Source of the DNA: Deltaproteobacteria bacterium
Lineage (GTDB): Bacteria; JAUYMQ01
Direction of reading: 5' to 3'
DNA: 6,368 nt
NCBI GenBank assembly: GCA_030698575.1
Contig: JAUYMQ010000012.1
Coordinates: 1 to 6,368 of the forward strand
A program made the position numbers and the translations under genes. Position 1 is the stretch's first letter. Each line of letters starts with the position of its first letter. This document shows positions 37-6,368 of the stretch, in pieces. The notes below the pieces were generated by a model. It saw nothing but the letters and a program-made list of their open reading frames with translations. It was not told the DNA's origin and made no database searches.

Positions 37-471
37 TCAGGCCGACTGACGCGCCCGCTTTTGCATCCTGGCGCGGATGCGGTTCTGCTTGAGGCGCGAA
101 AGATAGTCGACGAAGACCTTCCCCTACAGATGATCCATTTCATGCTGAATGCATACGGCCTGCAGCTTTTCGGATTCGAATTCGAACCGCTTGCCGTCCA
201 GGCCCACTGCGCGCACGTGTATCCACTCGGCGCGCTCGACAGCCTCATAGACCCCTGGGACAGATAGGCAGCCTTCTTCGCAATACTGGGATCCTTCGCT
301 TGCCAGTATCTCCGGGTTGATCAGGACCAGCAGCGTATCGCGCGCTTCCGATGTGTCGATGATAATGACCTGTTTGTGCACGTCGACCTGTGTCGCCGCG
401 AGCCCGACGCCGGGGGCTGCGTACATGGTCTCGGCCATGTCGCGCACCAGGGCGCGGATGTCTTCGGTAAC
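37..471 (-). pseudogene. def: 3' part of def (polypeptide deformylase), lacking its 5' end and carrying an internal TAG
   Basis: Deformylase removes the formyl group from the N-terminal methionine of new proteins, using a metal held by Cys and two His. All three motifs are intact: GVGLAATQ (388-411), EGCLSVP (256-276, Cys at 268-270) and QHEMDHL (127-147). About 30 N-terminal residues expected in the family, with the YPDPRL region, are missing; instead the frame runs in from a helix-turn-helix near 471. TAG at 124-126 falls directly after HEMDHL, yet the same frame continues as a normal Def C terminus (GKVFVDYLSRLKQNR) to TGA at 37-39, so the stop looks like a single-base nonsense change or a sequencing error. 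The sequence is most like betaproteobacterial Def. Loss of the 5' end and the stop both argue for a broken copy, or for a misassembled junction plus an error. Confidence 0.8.
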
Positions 472-3400
472 GCCCTTGCTTTCGGCGGGCGTGCGCATGG
501 TGACGCCGGCGCGTTCGAGCCATCGGCGTACGGTCGTTTCGCCACGGTCCATCGACTGAGCGATCTGGGCAGCCGTCTCGCCTTCTTCATAGCGCTGCGC
601 GGCGGCTTGGAGCGAGCCGATATACTCGACGATGTCGTCCTTCGTCGTTTGGCCCCTCAATTTGAGGAACTTGTCCAGACCGACGCTGGCGATCTCGTCT
701 TCCTTCACGCCCTGCGTGTTGCGCAGCGCGGCGAGCATCTGAGGGCCGGAGCCTTTTTCGGTCTTCAGGGATTCGGCGGCGCGGGTGAGGGCGGAGAAGA
801 AAGGTGGGGACTGACGGGGGAGGGCGAAGCGTTCGCGACCGCCGCGCGAAGCGAGCGGCATCTCCGGTGTCGTTTCGCCGCGCAGATACGCTACCCAGTC
901 CATATCGAGGATGCGGCCAATGTCGACCGCCAGGATCGTCTCCCGGCCCGCCGCGCGCGCAGTGGCGACGCGATGTCCGCCCTCAAGCAATTCCCATCGG
1001 CCGCTGTCGCCGCGACGCACGAGTACGGGCGGCGGCGCGTTGCCGGTCGCCAGCATCTCGGAATATCGCCTGACTGCGGCTTGGCTGATCGAGCGCCGGG
1101 ACAGATCGAGATCGGCCACCGGAACATCGGCGCGCGGGGCAGTCAGCGGATCGGCAAGGTCGAACAGTTCCGCGCGCCAATCTTCCTCCGTGGCGTCGCG
1201 GCCGTTTACTTCGCGATAGGCGCGCGCCGCCGGTTCGTGGCGGCTGATCTCATAGGCAAGATCGCTGCGGGTCTCGGCGGGGAGATCGTCATATGGCGTG
1301 TCGGTTAGGGCGCGATCTGCTTCGCCGCGCTCGCCCCGCTGCGCAGCTTCTTCAGCATCTCGCGCGCTTCGGCCTGGGTCTCCGGCTCCTCGCCTCTCTG
1401 TTCCAGAGCCGCTAGGTGCGTCACGATCAGGCCTTCCAGGCTGTCTCGATCGGGCGCTTTGCCCAGCATGTTCCTCGACATTTGCTGTAGCGGGGTCATC
1501 GTAAACCTCCTTGAGGGCGTCGTGCTCGGCGTGGAACGCATCGAAGGCGGCGACAAGATCGCTCTTGATGCGGCTGTCCAGCCCAGGATTATGCTCTTCG
1601 AACAAGCCTGACAACGCCGACAGCGCCGACGTGAAACTTTGATTGTGCTCGCCCTCGTTCTCGTGCACGGCCTCATGGTAGAGCGTGTGCAGGACGGATG
1701 CCGCCTTGGCGCTGGGCTTGGACAATCCGCCCGCGAACGGCCCGTAGAACGGGTTGATGAAGAAGCCCTTGAACGGCACCGAGACGTTCACACCGGCGTA
1801 GCCCTTGTCCAGAGACACGCCTGCGGGACGTGCCTGCGGGCTGCCCTCGGCAAAGGCCAGGTAATCCGATCCTGGAATCTTGCCGAGCCCGTCGCGGAAC
1901 GCAGTTGCCGCGGCGCCGAGCTGGTAGAAGAACTCGCGCAGCTTGGCTTCGGGCAAACCGGAGCGCTTCGCCGCATCGGCCACGATGTCCACATTGAGGT
2001 TGTTGTGGAATACCGGCGGCAGGCCGCGCAGGCTCTCGTCCGGAACCTTGAAATCCTCGACCGTGTTTGGGTTCTCGAACTTGTCGAGCGTGCGGCCGTC
2101 GATATTGAGCGCGCCGTCCTTGACCTGAATGCGGTCGGCGATCTGGAACGCCAGACTGCTCCGTTTCGGCAAGGCATCGCTGAGATCGAGGGAGTCGAAA
2201 TCCGCGCCTTCGGTCGTGGGGCGCATGGCCTGCAACCTGGTGAAGCCGGTGCTTGTCCCGCTCGCCGTCCGCGACCAGTTGATCAGGCGGAGATAATGTT
2301 CCAGCGCGGCGGTATCCTCCTCGACCTTCTTCGACCAATCTTCGCGCTGGTTGTTGAAGGGATAGAAGGCGTGCTCCGCCGGCACCTTGGAGCGCACGTT
2401 GAGGAGGATGCGATAGGGGATCGGATCGAACTTCATGGGGGTGGCGCGGAAGCGGGTGTCGAACTGCCACAGGCCGGCGGAGAGAACCTGGTGGTCCTGC
2501 CAGCCGCCATCGGTCGGCGCGTCGCCGTAATAGATATCGATCTCGCCCCACGGGAACTCCGCGGTGGTGATCTTCGGCAGCCCCTTCAACTCGATGTTGC
2601 GGCCGACCGGCAAGGTCATCGGCGTCTTCTCGCTGGCAGTCTTCACCGTGACGGTCACGTCGCCGATCAGCGGCTTGCGCAGGAAACCGAACGAGGTCGG
2701 GCTGCTCGGGACGTAAAGGTCCTTAATCTCGCCGCCGGCATCCTTGTATGTCTTCGGGAACGTGACCGTGACCGTGGTGCCGTTGGGCTCGCGCGTGGAG
2801 CTTTCTTTCAGGGTCGCCCGTCCCGCCATCAACTCCTTGCCGCTGGTGTCCAGATCGACCGCCACGCCGTCGCGCACGGTATGCAGCTTCAGCCCGTCGT
2901 TGCCGAAGATGAAGGCGAGCTTGGCGATGCCGAAGCCGCCCGAGGCCTGGTCCGGCGCAAGTCCCGCCTTGTCGGTTCCCGCAACGGTGAGGAACGCATC
3001 CTTCACGGTCTGCGCCGTCATGCCGGCACCGTTGTCCGTCACGGTGATGGTGCGCTTCTCGGGCTCGTAGACGATGTCGATCCTGGGCTCGCCCTTGATC
3101 GCGCCCGCGAACTGCGCCGCCTTCACCCCGTCGAAGGCGTTCTGCACCAACTCCTTCACCGTCACGTCCGGCATGTCCGCGCCGTAGAGTTTCGCGCCCA
3201 TGATCTTGACGATGCGCTCGAGATCGGCGCCGATGCCGACGGTCTGGTCCGGCCCTGGCTCGCGGGTGTCGCGCAGCTCGCGGCGCTCGCCGCCGAAGAA
3301 ACGATCAAAGGCGGACTTGTCCTGGGTCGAGGGGAAGGGGCCGCGCGGGAGGCTGAACTTCGGCTTGGCGGTCGCCCCTTCAATGCGCGCCGCCTCGGCC

Positions 3401-6368
3401 TCGTAGGCTTCGTCGAAGCGAGCGGTCGCCTCATCGTACTCGCGCTTTGCCGCCAGGAACTCGTCGTCACCGATCTTCTTGGCGCGGTAGTCGTCTTGGG
3501 CCTTTGTGAACTTCCGTTGGGCGGCGTCGTGCGCGGCGCGCGCGGCTTCGTACTCGGCAGACGTTGCCGGTTCGTCCGCAGCCTTCGGCGCTTCTTTCGG
3601 CGTCCGGGGCGCATCGAACATGTCGGCCTGCTTGCGCGCCCCTGTATCGAACAGCCCTTCATCGGCCGCCTTCTGCTGGGCCTTGGGCTTGATGCGACCC
3701 TCGCGCGCTTCGACGGCCTGCTGCACGGATTTCTCTGTACCGGGAATGACCTGCTGCTCGCGCGCGCCGTCGATGGTCTGGACGGTTTCGGTCGTGGGCT
3801 TGGCTTGTCCACGTTCCTGCTTCTGGAACTGGCCGACGTGGAACCCTACGGCCTTCTCTCCGCGCTGGAAGGCGGATGCCTGGGCACCCTGGCGGAACCG
3901 CGGCGGGATTTCCGTGCCCTCGGGAATGGAGCCCTCCAGCTCGGCGACACGACGATCGTAGCCGGCGAGGAACGCATCGCGCAGGAGCCGATTGAACGGC
4001 TTGCCGCTCGCCGTGCGCTGAGTCTCGACGGACGACTCGCGCTGGGCGCGAAGGTAGGAGATGAGGGCGTCGTCGCCCGCCACCTGACCGCCAGATGGCT
4101 GCGCGGCGGCGGATGTCTGATCTCCGGCAGCGTAGCGGGCTGCGTTCACCAGCGCCTTCTTGCTGTTCGCGAACCAGATCGTTCGGCCGGAATCGGTAGA
4201 CCCCTTCCGGAGAGCGTCGCCCATGGCCTGACGCACCCGCGGGCGCGTGACGCCGAACATCTCCTGCACGACGGGCGAGATGTACTCGAAGCGCGCGGAT
4301 GGATGGAGGTCCAGGAGGCGGAGGTCTGCATCTGTCGGCTCTCCGCCGGCACGCAGGCGCGCAGCGATCTCGGCGACGCGGTTCTGTCGCTCTTCGGCGC
4401 GCGCAGCATTGTCAGCCACGTTGGTGAGGCGCTTGCGCGCACTGTCCGCGGCAGCCTCCTTTGTCGCCTCGTAGTTCCAGATCATCTTGCCGTCGGCGTC
4501 GGCGACCGCCCACTTGCCTTTGGCAAGGCCCTTGCCTTCGATGAAATGGGAGCCTTCGGGAAAACCGTCGAGCAGAGCGTCGTCAGAATCAGAAACCCCG
4601 GCTTCTGGGGCCGGGGCTTGGTCTGCGGCTGGCTGCTCGGCCTGCGTTATTTCTGGTTGTTGGCCAGCGCCTCCAGGTTCTTCGCCTGGCGAAGTCCCTC
4701 CTTCCTCTGCGCGCGCGTCAGTCCCGGCTGGCCCAAGGCGCGGCGGCGCCCTTCCTTCACCAGCGCGAGACGCTGGTCCTTCGTCAATCTCGAACGGGAC
4801 TTCCCACCTATCTCCACGGCCTTCCTCCTGGGCCTGGGCGACGCGCTCGTCGACCCACGCCATCTTACCACTTTCAACAACGTCCGTCACAGCTTCCTCG
4901 GCGGACACGCCCTCGCCCATGCGCGCAAGGGCCGCGTCGGCTTCCTCGGCCGTCAGGGTGATCTCCATCTCCTCGGCGTATGCGGCGATATCGGCCCGGG
5001 CGTCGGCTTGGCCGGAATCGCCTTCCTGGGCCTGGATTTCGCCCCGCCGGCGGTCGACCTCCGCCCGGTCGCGCTCGGAATAGACGCGCTCCCCCCTGGC
5101 CTGGCGCTCGATGAGGTCCAGAAACTCGTTGATGCCCTGCTCGGGCGACGCATCGGGGCGTTCCTGGGGGAGATATCCGGCTTCTTGGGCGAGCTCGCGC
5201 GCGCGGTCCAAGGTCAAGCCATTGGCGCGTACCAAGCGGCCATGGCCAGGGACGAAGACGCGGCCGATATCGAGAGTGCGCAATTCGCCGCCCTGGTCCC
5301 GGATGCCGCCCTGGGAGGCCAGGAACCGGAACAGGTCTTGCGGCGCCCGCATGCGCTGTTTCAGTCGGCGCTGCGGCTCCGGCTCTGCCTGTCCAGCAGG
5401 CCCCGGCGCGGCTGGCGTTTCGACATAGCCTCGAACATCTCGACCTGCGCCAGCCTCTTCTGCGCCCGCTCCCGGCTCGGATACGGCCCGCCCAGGTTGC
5501 GGCCCGACTCGCTCAGGACGTGAAAGCCGTCCTTGCGTTTCACGATCATCGATAGCTCCTTGCGAAATCTCCATCGCCCGGCCGATCGCTCGGGATTTCT
5601 CCTCCTGCGTAAGCTGCGCCCACGGCGCGACGCGGCCTGCGGTCTCGCGGATGATGTTGAGCCCGACCCCGGCGACGTCCGGCGCGCCATCGGCATCCTT
5701 GGGCAGCAGCGCGCGGAAGTGCTCGAAACTCGAGGAAGAAGGCGGGGCCGGTCGGGCAGCGACTGCCTCGACCGGCCCCTGGGCGGGAGGCTGCGCCTCT
5801 GCGCGAGGCAAGGCAGGAGCCTCGACCGCCGTCTCGTCCGGAACAACGGATACGTCCTGCGGGCTGACCAATACGGCACCATCCTCGGTCTCCAGGCGGG
5901 CATAGGTCTGGCCCTGGTGCTCCACCGTGCCGGCGAGAGTGCCGCGCACGATCTCGCCGGAGGGAAGGGTGGCGGTGACGGAGGGGGGGGCATCTTTCGC
6001 CCGCTCCTGGTCGGCCACGATATCGGCCAGGGGGCTCTCCGTCGTGACCGGACGCGCTGACGCATCGGGATCCTGCCGCGCGGCCTCGGCGATGGCGCGG
6101 CCCTCGGCGATATCGGGGGAGGCTGCCGGGGCTGAAACGGCGGGCGCGCTTAGCGCGCTCAGCGCGCTTTGAATGATCGCCTCGCCCTCGGCCTTCAGAT
6201 CGGTGGGGATGGGAGAATCGATGTCGCCCTGTGTGATCTCCACGGCGACGGGGGGAGAAGTGGGATCCAGCGTGACCAGGACGGTGCCGGGCTCGGTCTG
6301 GACGGCTTCGGGGGCGGGCTGGGCGGGGTCGCCGGAATCGGGCGGGGGCGGGCTGAGGTCTGGGGTGG
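124..6368 (-). CDS. Giant polyvalent protein, 5' end outside window, fused at its C terminus to a deformylase fragment
   Basis: The frame is open from the right edge to TAG at 124-126, giving over 2,080 residues. The first in-window start candidate is GTG at 6243, but the frame stays open upstream with Pro-rich codons, so the true start lies outside. Numbering from that GTG: disordered region 1-230; phage-type module 298-400 ([16 protein letters not shown]); beta-hairpin/helix near 567-610; coiled coil about 894-955; GHKL ATPase about 1007-1180 (N box at 1031, DNGAGM at 1070); [11 protein letters not shown] at 1523-1533; ParB-like domain with GGHR at 1755-1758; second conserved module 1806-1875; helix-turn-helix 1879-1922; deformylase from about 1925. 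This mix matches the large polyvalent proteins of phages and conjugative elements, which are thought to counter host defences during entry; that role is inferred. Three strong nested ORFs lie within linkers. It could be several genes fused by loss of stop codons, and the deformylase junction may be an assembly artefact. Confidence 0.8.
478..609 (-). other. Helix-turn-helix segment at the end of the mobile-element part
   Basis: The stretch [19 protein letters not shown] followed by [19 protein letters not shown] fits a resolvase/homeodomain-like helix-turn-helix: AAQIAQSM as helix 2 and [11 protein letters not shown] as the recognition helix. Such heads with the tail [10 protein letters not shown] are often found on phage regulators, HNH homing endonucleases and small terminase-like proteins. 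The sequence switches to deformylase immediately after it, so it may be the truncated head of a larger domain. Confidence 0.6.
619..828 (-). other. Large-polyvalent-protein associated module
   Basis: Reads [20 protein letters not shown], then [20 protein letters not shown], then [18 protein letters not shown] and VEYI. The order (FYSxLxRA, GxxQMLxxLRxxxGVKxEEI, GLxxFL, TKDEI) matches, from memory, a short module found repeatedly in giant phage and conjugative-element proteins, where its function is unknown. It supports a mobile-element origin of the frame. Confidence 0.68.
901..1119 (-). other. ParB-like domain of the giant protein
   Basis: Starts with [13 protein letters not shown], then a predicted helix ([11 protein letters not shown]), a PPVLV strand, and the signature ELLEGGHR (GGHR at 970-981) followed by ATARAAGRE and AVDIGRI. 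This is the ParB/Srx-like fold with its GxHR motif, which in ParB binds or hydrolyses nucleotide and which is common as a module in polyvalent proteins. Whether it is a nuclease, a CTPase or a modification enzyme cannot be told from sequence. Confidence 0.78.
1305..1499 (-). CDS. Nested small helical protein, 64 aa, overlapping the giant frame
   Basis: ATG at 1499 is preceded by AAGGAGGT with a 5-nt spacer, the strongest ribosome binding site in the window, and the ORF ends at TAA 1305-1307. The product starts [16 protein letters not shown] and continues with [20 protein letters not shown] and a charged helix ([12 protein letters not shown]), so it looks like a folded, helical protein. About 83% of codons end in G or C, against about 45% for the giant frame, which reads here as an RG/GE-rich stretch without recognisable structure. 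It begins just after the metalloprotease-motif region and ends just before the ParB-like region of the giant. I do not recognise a family and assign no function. It is in the same +1 frame as the other two nested genes. Confidence 0.7.
1500..1830 (-). other. Zincin-type metallopeptidase motif region of the giant protein
   Basis: [11 protein letters not shown] at 1645-1677 gives HExxHxxxxxH, with a third His at the metzincin spacing but Glu where metzincins usually have Gly. It is followed by NQSF and a helical SALSALSGL segment. Upstream is an aromatic/glycine-rich stretch ([16 protein letters not shown]). A zinc-dependent peptidase is the likely reading. Its place directly after the GHKL ATPase suggests an ATP-controlled protease module, which is inference. 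Confidence 0.65.
1505..1512 (-). promoter_or_regulatory. Shine-Dalgarno AAGGAGGT of the 64-aa nested gene
   Basis: An eight-base match to the anti-Shine-Dalgarno at 5-nt spacing from the ATG at 1499. Such a long match inside a coding region should recruit ribosomes. In the giant frame it encodes KEV, so Lys-Glu codons could produce part of it by chance. Confidence 0.72.
2700..3225 (-). other. GHKL (Hsp90/histidine-kinase-like) ATPase domain of the giant protein
   Basis: The Bergerat-fold motifs are present in order: an N box ELVQNAFD (3130-3153) with the Mg-binding Asn, DNGAGM (3019-3036) with the adenine-contacting Asp, and [10 protein letters not shown] (2911-2940) as the lid glycine motif. 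Spacing of about 35 residues between motifs is normal for the superfamily. The segment down to about 2290, with the basic stretch [10 protein letters not shown], may be the transducer-like region that follows the ATPase in GyrB/MutL/Hsp90 proteins; that part is inferred. Catalytic residues look intact, so ATP binding is likely. Confidence 0.82.
4593..4619 (-). terminator. Terminator-like hairpin after the 56-aa nested gene
   Basis: On the minus strand the arms AAGCCCCGGC and GCCGGGGTTT can form a 10-bp stem (seven G-C pairs, one G-T, two A-T) around the loop CCCAGAA, followed by a T-rich but interrupted tract (CTGATTCT). It starts 27 nt downstream of the TAA of the nested gene and lies inside the giant frame, where it encodes Ala/Pro/Gly-rich linker. 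The stem and position fit a Rho-independent terminator, but the T tract is weak. Alternatives are an attenuator, an mRNA-processing hairpin, or chance in GC-rich linker DNA. Confidence 0.42.
4647..4817 (-). CDS. Nested small basic protein, 56 aa, GTG start
   Basis: GTG at 4817 follows AGGAGG with a 6-nt spacer, and the ORF ends at TAA 4647-4649. The product is basic and looks like a helical protein: [15 protein letters not shown], then [18 protein letters not shown], then [15 protein letters not shown]. The two LT-(K/R)-x-Q-R stretches look like a helical repeat. About 82% of codons end in G or C, against about 46% in the giant frame here, where the protein reads as Gly/Glu/Pro/Ala-rich filler. 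An ATG further upstream at 4880 is in frame, but the intervening residues are shadow-like and lack a ribosome binding site. I do not recognise a family; size and charge fit a small accessory phage protein, possibly nucleic-acid binding. It is +1 relative to the giant frame, like the other two nested genes, and a terminator-like hairpin follows its stop. Confidence 0.62.
4824..4829 (-). promoter_or_regulatory. Shine-Dalgarno AGGAGG of the 56-aa nested gene
   Basis: A perfect six-base AGGAGG, 6 nt before the GTG at 4817. It selects GTG over the upstream in-frame ATG at 4880. The giant frame reads these bases as part of a Gln-Glu-Glu run, so chance cannot be fully excluded. Confidence 0.6.
5361..5549 (-). 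CDS. Nested small phage-type protein, 62 aa, overlapping the giant frame
   Basis: ATG at 5549 is preceded by AAGGAG with a 6-nt spacer, and the ORF ends at TGA 5361-5363. The product starts [18 protein letters not shown] and continues with LGGPYPS and a basic helix ([16 protein letters not shown]). The pattern, a short beta-hairpin with a Gly turn followed by a helix ending in Q-V-E-x-F, resembles a type of small uncharacterised protein common in tailed phages; I recall the type but cannot name a family. The C-terminal 20 residues are R/S-rich and probably disordered. About 92% of its codons end in G or C, against about 50% for the giant frame over the same bases, so the coding signal belongs to this ORF. 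It lies +1 relative to the giant frame. Its stop is 8 nt before an in-frame ATG of the giant (5352), which could be a coupled restart. Function unknown. Confidence 0.72.
5556..5561 (-). promoter_or_regulatory. Shine-Dalgarno AAGGAG of the 62-aa nested gene
   Basis: A six-base match to the anti-Shine-Dalgarno, 6 nt before the ATG at 5549. It decides this start, because the same frame is open further upstream but reads there as low-complexity Arg/Pro sequence. In the giant frame these bases encode part of SQGAI. Confidence 0.7.
6144..6168. repeat. Short 9-bp-period tandem repeat
   Basis: GCGCGCT occurs three times at exact 9-bp spacing (6144-6150, 6153-6159, 6162-6168). In the giant frame it encodes Ser-Ala-Leu, Ser-Ala-Leu, Ser-Ala in a disordered Ala/Pro-rich region. 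It is most likely a small slippage expansion within coding sequence. Confidence 0.4.

Follow-up and report, generated by a model that had tools for sequence, protein, structure and literature searches.

The stretch of DNA analysed here (the window) is the entire contig C650 of a metagenomic bin of 653 contigs and 4.13 Mb (G000:C650, 6,368 bases); at 6.4 kb, this contig is cut at both ends. Its minus strand carries a giant open frame of 2,080 codons, made up of four modules (A to D), and three small open reading frames (n1, n2, and n3) that are nested within the giant between successive modules (Table 1). Pfam searches detected an HSP90-like ATPase domain in module C, a helix-turn-helix domain in module D, and a peptide deformylase domain at the C terminus of the giant, and weak ParB-like matches were also found. 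Because the window encodes these several unrelated domains in one long polypeptide, we regard the giant as a polyvalent-type protein. Like the polyvalent proteins described previously (Iyer et al. 2017, PMC5512222), it is very long, multidomain, and phage-type, with linkers between unrelated modules. The window's own modules gave no Pfam match to a large-polyvalent-associated domain. No similarity of the window to phages was found at the nucleotide level, and searches of IMG/VR and genome contigs with the ATPase, A, and B segments found no close relatives of the giant. Relatives were reached solely through the protein family of n1 (see below) and, for the B module, through an alignment of two rows.

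Table 1. Features of the 6,368-base window
Feature	Position	Strand	Evidence or remark
Giant open frame, 2,080 codons	6366-124	minus	ends at TAG 124-126; 5' end cut by contig edge
Module A of giant	6366-5550	minus	
Shine-Dalgarno sequence of n1, AAGGAG	5556..5561	minus	sequence; 6 nt before ATG (start 5549)
Nested gene n1, 62 aa, ATG to TGA, KDG family	5361..5549	minus	codon signal, homologues, structure model
Module B of giant	about 5360-4818	minus	
B module sequence	5023..5352	minus	common to other giants and shorter ORFs
Shine-Dalgarno sequence of n2, AGGAGG	4824..4829	minus	sequence; 6 nt before GTG (start 4817)
Nested gene n2, 56 aa, GTG to TAA	4647..4817	minus	codon signal; weak kin at same slot in other giants
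Module C of giant	4646-1500	minus	
HSP90-like ATPase domain (HATPase_c / HATPase_c_3), module C	2752..3165	minus	Pfam
Shine-Dalgarno sequence of n3, AAGGAGG	1506..1512	minus	sequence; 6 nt before ATG (start 1499)
Nested gene n3, 64 aa, ATG to TAA	1305..1499	minus	codon signal; no relative found
Module D of giant	1304-124	minus	
Helix-turn-helix domain (HTH_23), module D	511..606	minus	Pfam
Peptide deformylase domain, giant C terminus	127..471	minus	Pfam; cut short by TAG 124-126

The original prediction, made from the letters of the window, held that the three small ORFs share one frame, that each follows a strong Shine-Dalgarno sequence, and that third-position G+C content (GC3) flips between the two frames across them. 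All three observations were reproduced: n1, n2, and n3 lie on the minus strand in the +1 frame relative to the giant, and the Shine-Dalgarno spacing is 6 nt in each. Both frames are thus open across each stretch; giant and nested ORFs have separate starts and stops, the start of the giant lying beyond the contig edge. GC3 in the nested frame is 0.92 for n1, 0.82 for n2, and 0.83 for n3, versus 0.50, 0.46, and 0.45, respectively, in the giant frame across the same stretches (binomial P for the giant deficit = 3e-8, 7e-9, and 2e-10) and a steady 0.81 in the giant outside them (1,898 codons). A scoring of all starts of all +1 ORFs in the giant placed three ORFs at the top, with their best starts exactly at 1499, 4817, and 5549; the next-ranked +1 ORF was not significant (P = 0.18). 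The codon signal therefore supports the reading of n1, n2, and n3 as genuine coding sequences.

The length of the nested ORFs was rejected as coding evidence, because the number of +1 ORFs of at least 40 aa in the giant (10 observed) equals that in synonymous shuffles (10.5). Such a chance-level count would fit an artefact, be it open frames arising by chance in GC-rich DNA or local assembly errors. We consider an artefact extremely improbable, since the codon flip falls on exactly three ORFs that have Shine-Dalgarno sequences, n1 has homologues, and 20 independent contigs, some with a GC content as low as 37%, show the same arrangement (see below). For n1, an artefact is already refuted.

The use of a single frame by all three ORFs, which the original prediction had taken as a clue to their origin, turned out to carry no additional weight. 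With the three proteins and the codon usage taken as given, the probability that the giant frame is open is 0.26 across n1, 0.35 across n2, and 0.23 across n3, whereas that of the other alternative frame is 0, 0.09, and 0; constraint alone predicts that the giant's frame is open and the other blocked. The frame is fixed in this way because ATGA, the sequence at a Met-Ile or Met-Thr start, already contains a stop in the other frame.

By sequence similarity, n1 is a member of a widespread and previously unnamed family of phage small proteins of ~45 aa, which we name KDG after the MIVKRKDG start of n1. It matches a 43-codon free-standing ORF of Aeromonas phage 1233 (65% over 40 aa, E = 3e-10), and searches of IMG/VR, whose loci are uncultured contigs, recovered 11 loci at first and then at least 390 (66% identity over 44 aa for locus L010). 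The conserved columns of a 58-row alignment are Met1, Gly8, Leu19, Pro22, Ala29, Arg32, and Phe39, with Met1 invariant, and n1 is similar to the family over the ~40-aa core with its conserved residues. An AlphaFold2 model of n1 has a beta-beta-beta-alpha topology (pLDDT about 95 for residues 1 to 40). We sorted 75 distinct loci, taken from the best 80 of the at least 390 relatives as ranked by similarity to n1, and the resulting shares are not population frequencies: KDG is a free-standing gene with its own start and stop in 43 loci, is nested in a giant ORF in 20, and forms an in-frame domain in 12. No KDG was found in plasmids. The standalone genes come after a terminase-like gene and often ahead of a portal-like gene (names read from the sequences), and the in-frame copies lie within prohead-protease-type proteins; from this context, we guess at a role in head assembly.

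Searches of the nested products against Pfam, NCBIfam, and PDB gave nothing convincing. Weak sequence matches to KDG members were seen in four PHROGs of unknown function (phrog_2859, phrog_3684, phrog_13335, and phrog_1375); in the large PHROG profiles the domain lies in frame within a longer protein, for example of the prohead protease type, unlike the nested n1. The KDG model also weakly matches structures of DUF1508/YegP-like proteins (NMB1088, HVO_2922, and YegP), with scores too weak for a claim of membership (best Foldseek E = 0.67; VIA Z = 3 to 4). The standalone genes closest to the KDG of the window (L093, L094, and L096) are binned as Candidatus Micrarchaeota, a binning that may be wrong. 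At another locus (L034), an 810-aa terminase-like ORF ends 19 bases before KDG and, by eye, contains an apparent intein-like insertion near the Walker A region.

The 20 nested copies of KDG lie in giant frames of 629 to 4,108 codons, in loci whose GC content ranges from 0.37 to 0.67, mostly 430 to 870 codons from the first codon of the giant. Their frame relation to the giant is identical to that in the window in 20 of 20 cases. These giants have no detectable relationship to that of the window, and several carry domains typical of polyvalent proteins, including InPase, strawberry-notch helicase, N6 methylase, LPD38 (below the cut-off), and RadC. The codon-usage flip worked as a detector of nested genes only in the GC-rich giants and not in those of intermediate GC content.

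Because the window has no close relative, selection was measured in the other giants. Five pairs of homologous giants were compared across KDG, and the differences at positions 1/2/3 of the KDG codons numbered 0/0/16, 0/2/7, 0/1/8, 0/1/11, and 8/6/12. This concentration at the third position is the reverse of the pattern almost everywhere else in those giants. In every pair the KDG protein was more conserved than the giant linker that overlaps it (identity of 1.00,.95,.95,.95, and.82 for KDG versus.64,.84,.82,.75, and.64 for the linker), which indicates purifying selection on the inner frame. The outer frame is also kept open by selection: given the KDG protein and genome codon usage, the probability of an open giant frame across KDG is about 0.001 per low-GC locus, with a product of 10^-38 over 17 nested loci, a rough figure because some of the 17 are related. 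The corresponding probabilities for the window (0.23 to 0.35 each) are uninformative. The same frame is open across only 4 of the 43 standalone KDG genes.

The nested copies could in principle be reached by programmed frameshifting from the giant, which would yield fusions of the N-terminal part of the giant to the small domain and not free small proteins. The small frames do lie inside a translated gene, and KDG occurs as an in-frame domain of larger proteins in the 12 loci noted above. Such a shift would nevertheless have to be reconciled with the invariance of Met1 and with an in-frame stop 1 to 40 codons upstream of the KDG start in 19 of the 20 nested loci, so that a shift site would have hardly any space. 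At nested KDG, the use of Shine-Dalgarno sequences also matches that of the other genes of each contig: 11 loci have such a sequence and lie in contigs whose genes mostly use one, and the 9 that lack it lie in contigs that hardly use one. We therefore give frameshifting very little credence. Taken together, the third-position differences, the open giant frame, the agreement of Shine-Dalgarno use with the contig, and the upstream stops show, on comparative sequence grounds, that the KDG stretches in the other giants are dual-coding.

A clade consisting of nested copies only (10 rows; SH-aLRT = 97; GC content 0.37 to 0.64) suggests that some of these nestings are old and inherited. The remaining nested copies are scattered over a weakly resolved tree and likely have several origins. 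The KDG tree, built from 52 columns, did not place the copy in the window.

The B module gave access to the second nested gene. A search with this module found 13 loci, and matches lie in the giants of L103, L106, L107, L110, L111, and L113 and in shorter ORFs of L006, L104, and L105. The L103 giant matches that of the window on both flanks of the n2 position (window residues 342 to 431 and 850 to 917) and carries a +1 gene between them, across which the GC3 of the giant falls to 0.43 versus 0.85 (P = 5e-14). L106 has a +1 gene at the same place (P = 4e-7). A +1 gene also follows the B module in L006, L104, and L105, and codon differences there shift off the third position of the giant. n2 itself has a weak homologue elsewhere in its own bin (E = 6e-5), which the L103 gene matches as well (E = 5.5e-6). 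Against a profile of the five sequences from this slot (L006, L104, L105, L103, and the host-bin homologue), n2 ranked first of 5,001 (E = 7e-4). No match to n2 was found in phages or IMG/VR. These similarities make it likely that n2 belongs to a recurrent slot family filled by overprinted small genes. The host-bin homologue has a weak addiction-module match (TIGR02574) below the cut-off.

No homologue of n3 was found in any collection searched, including phages and IMG/VR, and the codon flip and Shine-Dalgarno sequence alone mark it as a putative gene. The original claim that the linkers are translated small genes read out of frame therefore stands in graded form: homologues settle it for n1, it is likely for n2, and for n3 it is what these two signals suggest. 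A lack of homologues for all nested products, combined with conserved giant linkers in relatives, had been named as the outcome that would count against that claim; such homologues exist, and in the giants compared the linkers are not conserved.

A third position recurs in other giants, where L110 (10183-10410) and L113 (7476-7715) each have a +1 gene after a GGDEF-like domain, a label read from the sequence. Each of these products has the other as its best match, ahead of 5,000 shuffles (E = 2e-4 and 5e-4). Pfam called GGDEF in L016 only, in which a nested ORF at the same place matched neither the L110 nor the L113 product. Long, protein-like +1 ORFs were also observed in giant linkers of L016 (12734-13198; 154 aa) and L066 (11163-11543; 126 aa). 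They have Shine-Dalgarno-like sequences but no family match, and both giants also hold a nested KDG. Three types of slot were thus seen: one holds KDG, a second follows the B module (n2 of the window, L103, L106, L006, L104, and L105), and a third follows the GGDEF-like domain (L110 and L113).

We consider it likely that the window encodes a polyvalent-type giant whose inter-domain linkers double as small genes lodged there in the +1 frame, probably expressed by internal initiation. Ribosomes would start at the internal Shine-Dalgarno sequence and ATG or GTG on the giant's mRNA, releasing a free small protein, and ribosomes translating the giant would decode this stretch in a phase shifted by one base, as a hydrophilic, flexible spacer rich in Gly, Pro, Arg, and Glu. 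A linker could tolerate overprinting because it needs only openness and flexibility. The small genes would have been inserted or relocated into linkers that already existed.

The original prediction proposed a different history, in which A, B, C, and D began as separate operon genes and were joined by stop-codon loss, so that the small genes between them became linkers. The small genes do sit exactly between modules, and at 66% GC read-through in this frame is cheap, as the probabilities for the window given above indicate. However, among the loci sampled, and within the limits of that sampling, no relative was found in which modules and small genes are encoded separately in the order A-1-B-2-C-3-D. 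The B module of L103 and L106 lies within giants that are already fused and lack KDG; KDG is absent from the giants that share this module with the window, and standalone KDG genes sit elsewhere. The TGA of ATGA, moreover, lies in the third frame, and had an upstream gene overlapped by the usual ATGA, point loss of one stop would have been insufficient.

The most direct comparison comes from L065 and L066, the giants of which are homologous at their N- and C-terminal parts. In L065, KDG is a free gene of a tight operon that lies directly upstream of the giant, which lacks KDG; on its own, this arrangement would suit an operon fusion. In L066, KDG is overprinted at residue 491 of the giant, which matches the L065 giant on both sides of this position. 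The pair speaks for the move of a small gene into a linker that was already present, although the direction of the move is unproven, since loss from the L065 giant together with a separate KDG is possible. We infer that the small genes reached the linkers by insertion or relocation and were not left there as scars of fusion, and we regard fusion by stop-codon loss as improbable. For the window itself, this history is drawn by analogy, because the giants sharing its B module lack KDG and those with a nested KDG are not detectably related to its own.

Overprinted viral genes include E, which lies inside D in phiX174, and Rz1, which lies inside Rz, and the arrangement in the window appears similar in that one DNA stretch serves two frames and the small protein would be started internally. 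In classic overprints, the inner frame is usually treated as the newer one; here, in contrast, the inner gene comes from an old family that also has standalone members, and the frame around it encodes a linker. Across virus genomes, the median +1 overlap is only 14 nt (Muñoz-Baena and Poon 2022, PMC8903798), and the polyvalent-protein paper (Iyer et al. 2017, PMC5512222) is silent in its text on genes that overlap, are overprinted, or are nested in frame. A literature search, with subscription journals outside its coverage, found no described case of this arrangement.

Overprinting in giants looks like a recurrent way to pack two genes into one DNA stretch. We lean toward the broader view that overprinting of small genes in linkers is a systematic feature of large polyvalent genes in phages, with slots that recur and with the +1 frame used every time; the constraint on frames explains why one frame is always used. 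If so, the linkers would form a reserve of small accessory genes overlooked in annotation, because the giant ORF masks them from annotation pipelines. Small ORFs within long ones are discarded by gene callers, and annotation would therefore lack a whole class of conserved small proteins of phages. Overprinted linkers also provide a clean natural test of shared two-frame constraint, in which the small protein is conserved and the linker peptide drifts, its frame just staying open. They further suggest that small genes can lodge harmlessly in the disordered linkers of giant proteins.

One further feature of the window concerns the C terminus of the giant. The TAG at which the giant ends falls inside the deformylase domain, right after HEMDHL; the Pfam profile was matched only from position 22, and the domain is 49% identical to a deformylase on contig C434 of the same bin. 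This TAG could reflect a nonsense change or a sequencing error, or it could be read through. Beyond it, the giant frame continues with GKVFVDYLSRLKQNRIRARMQKRARQSA until a TGA.
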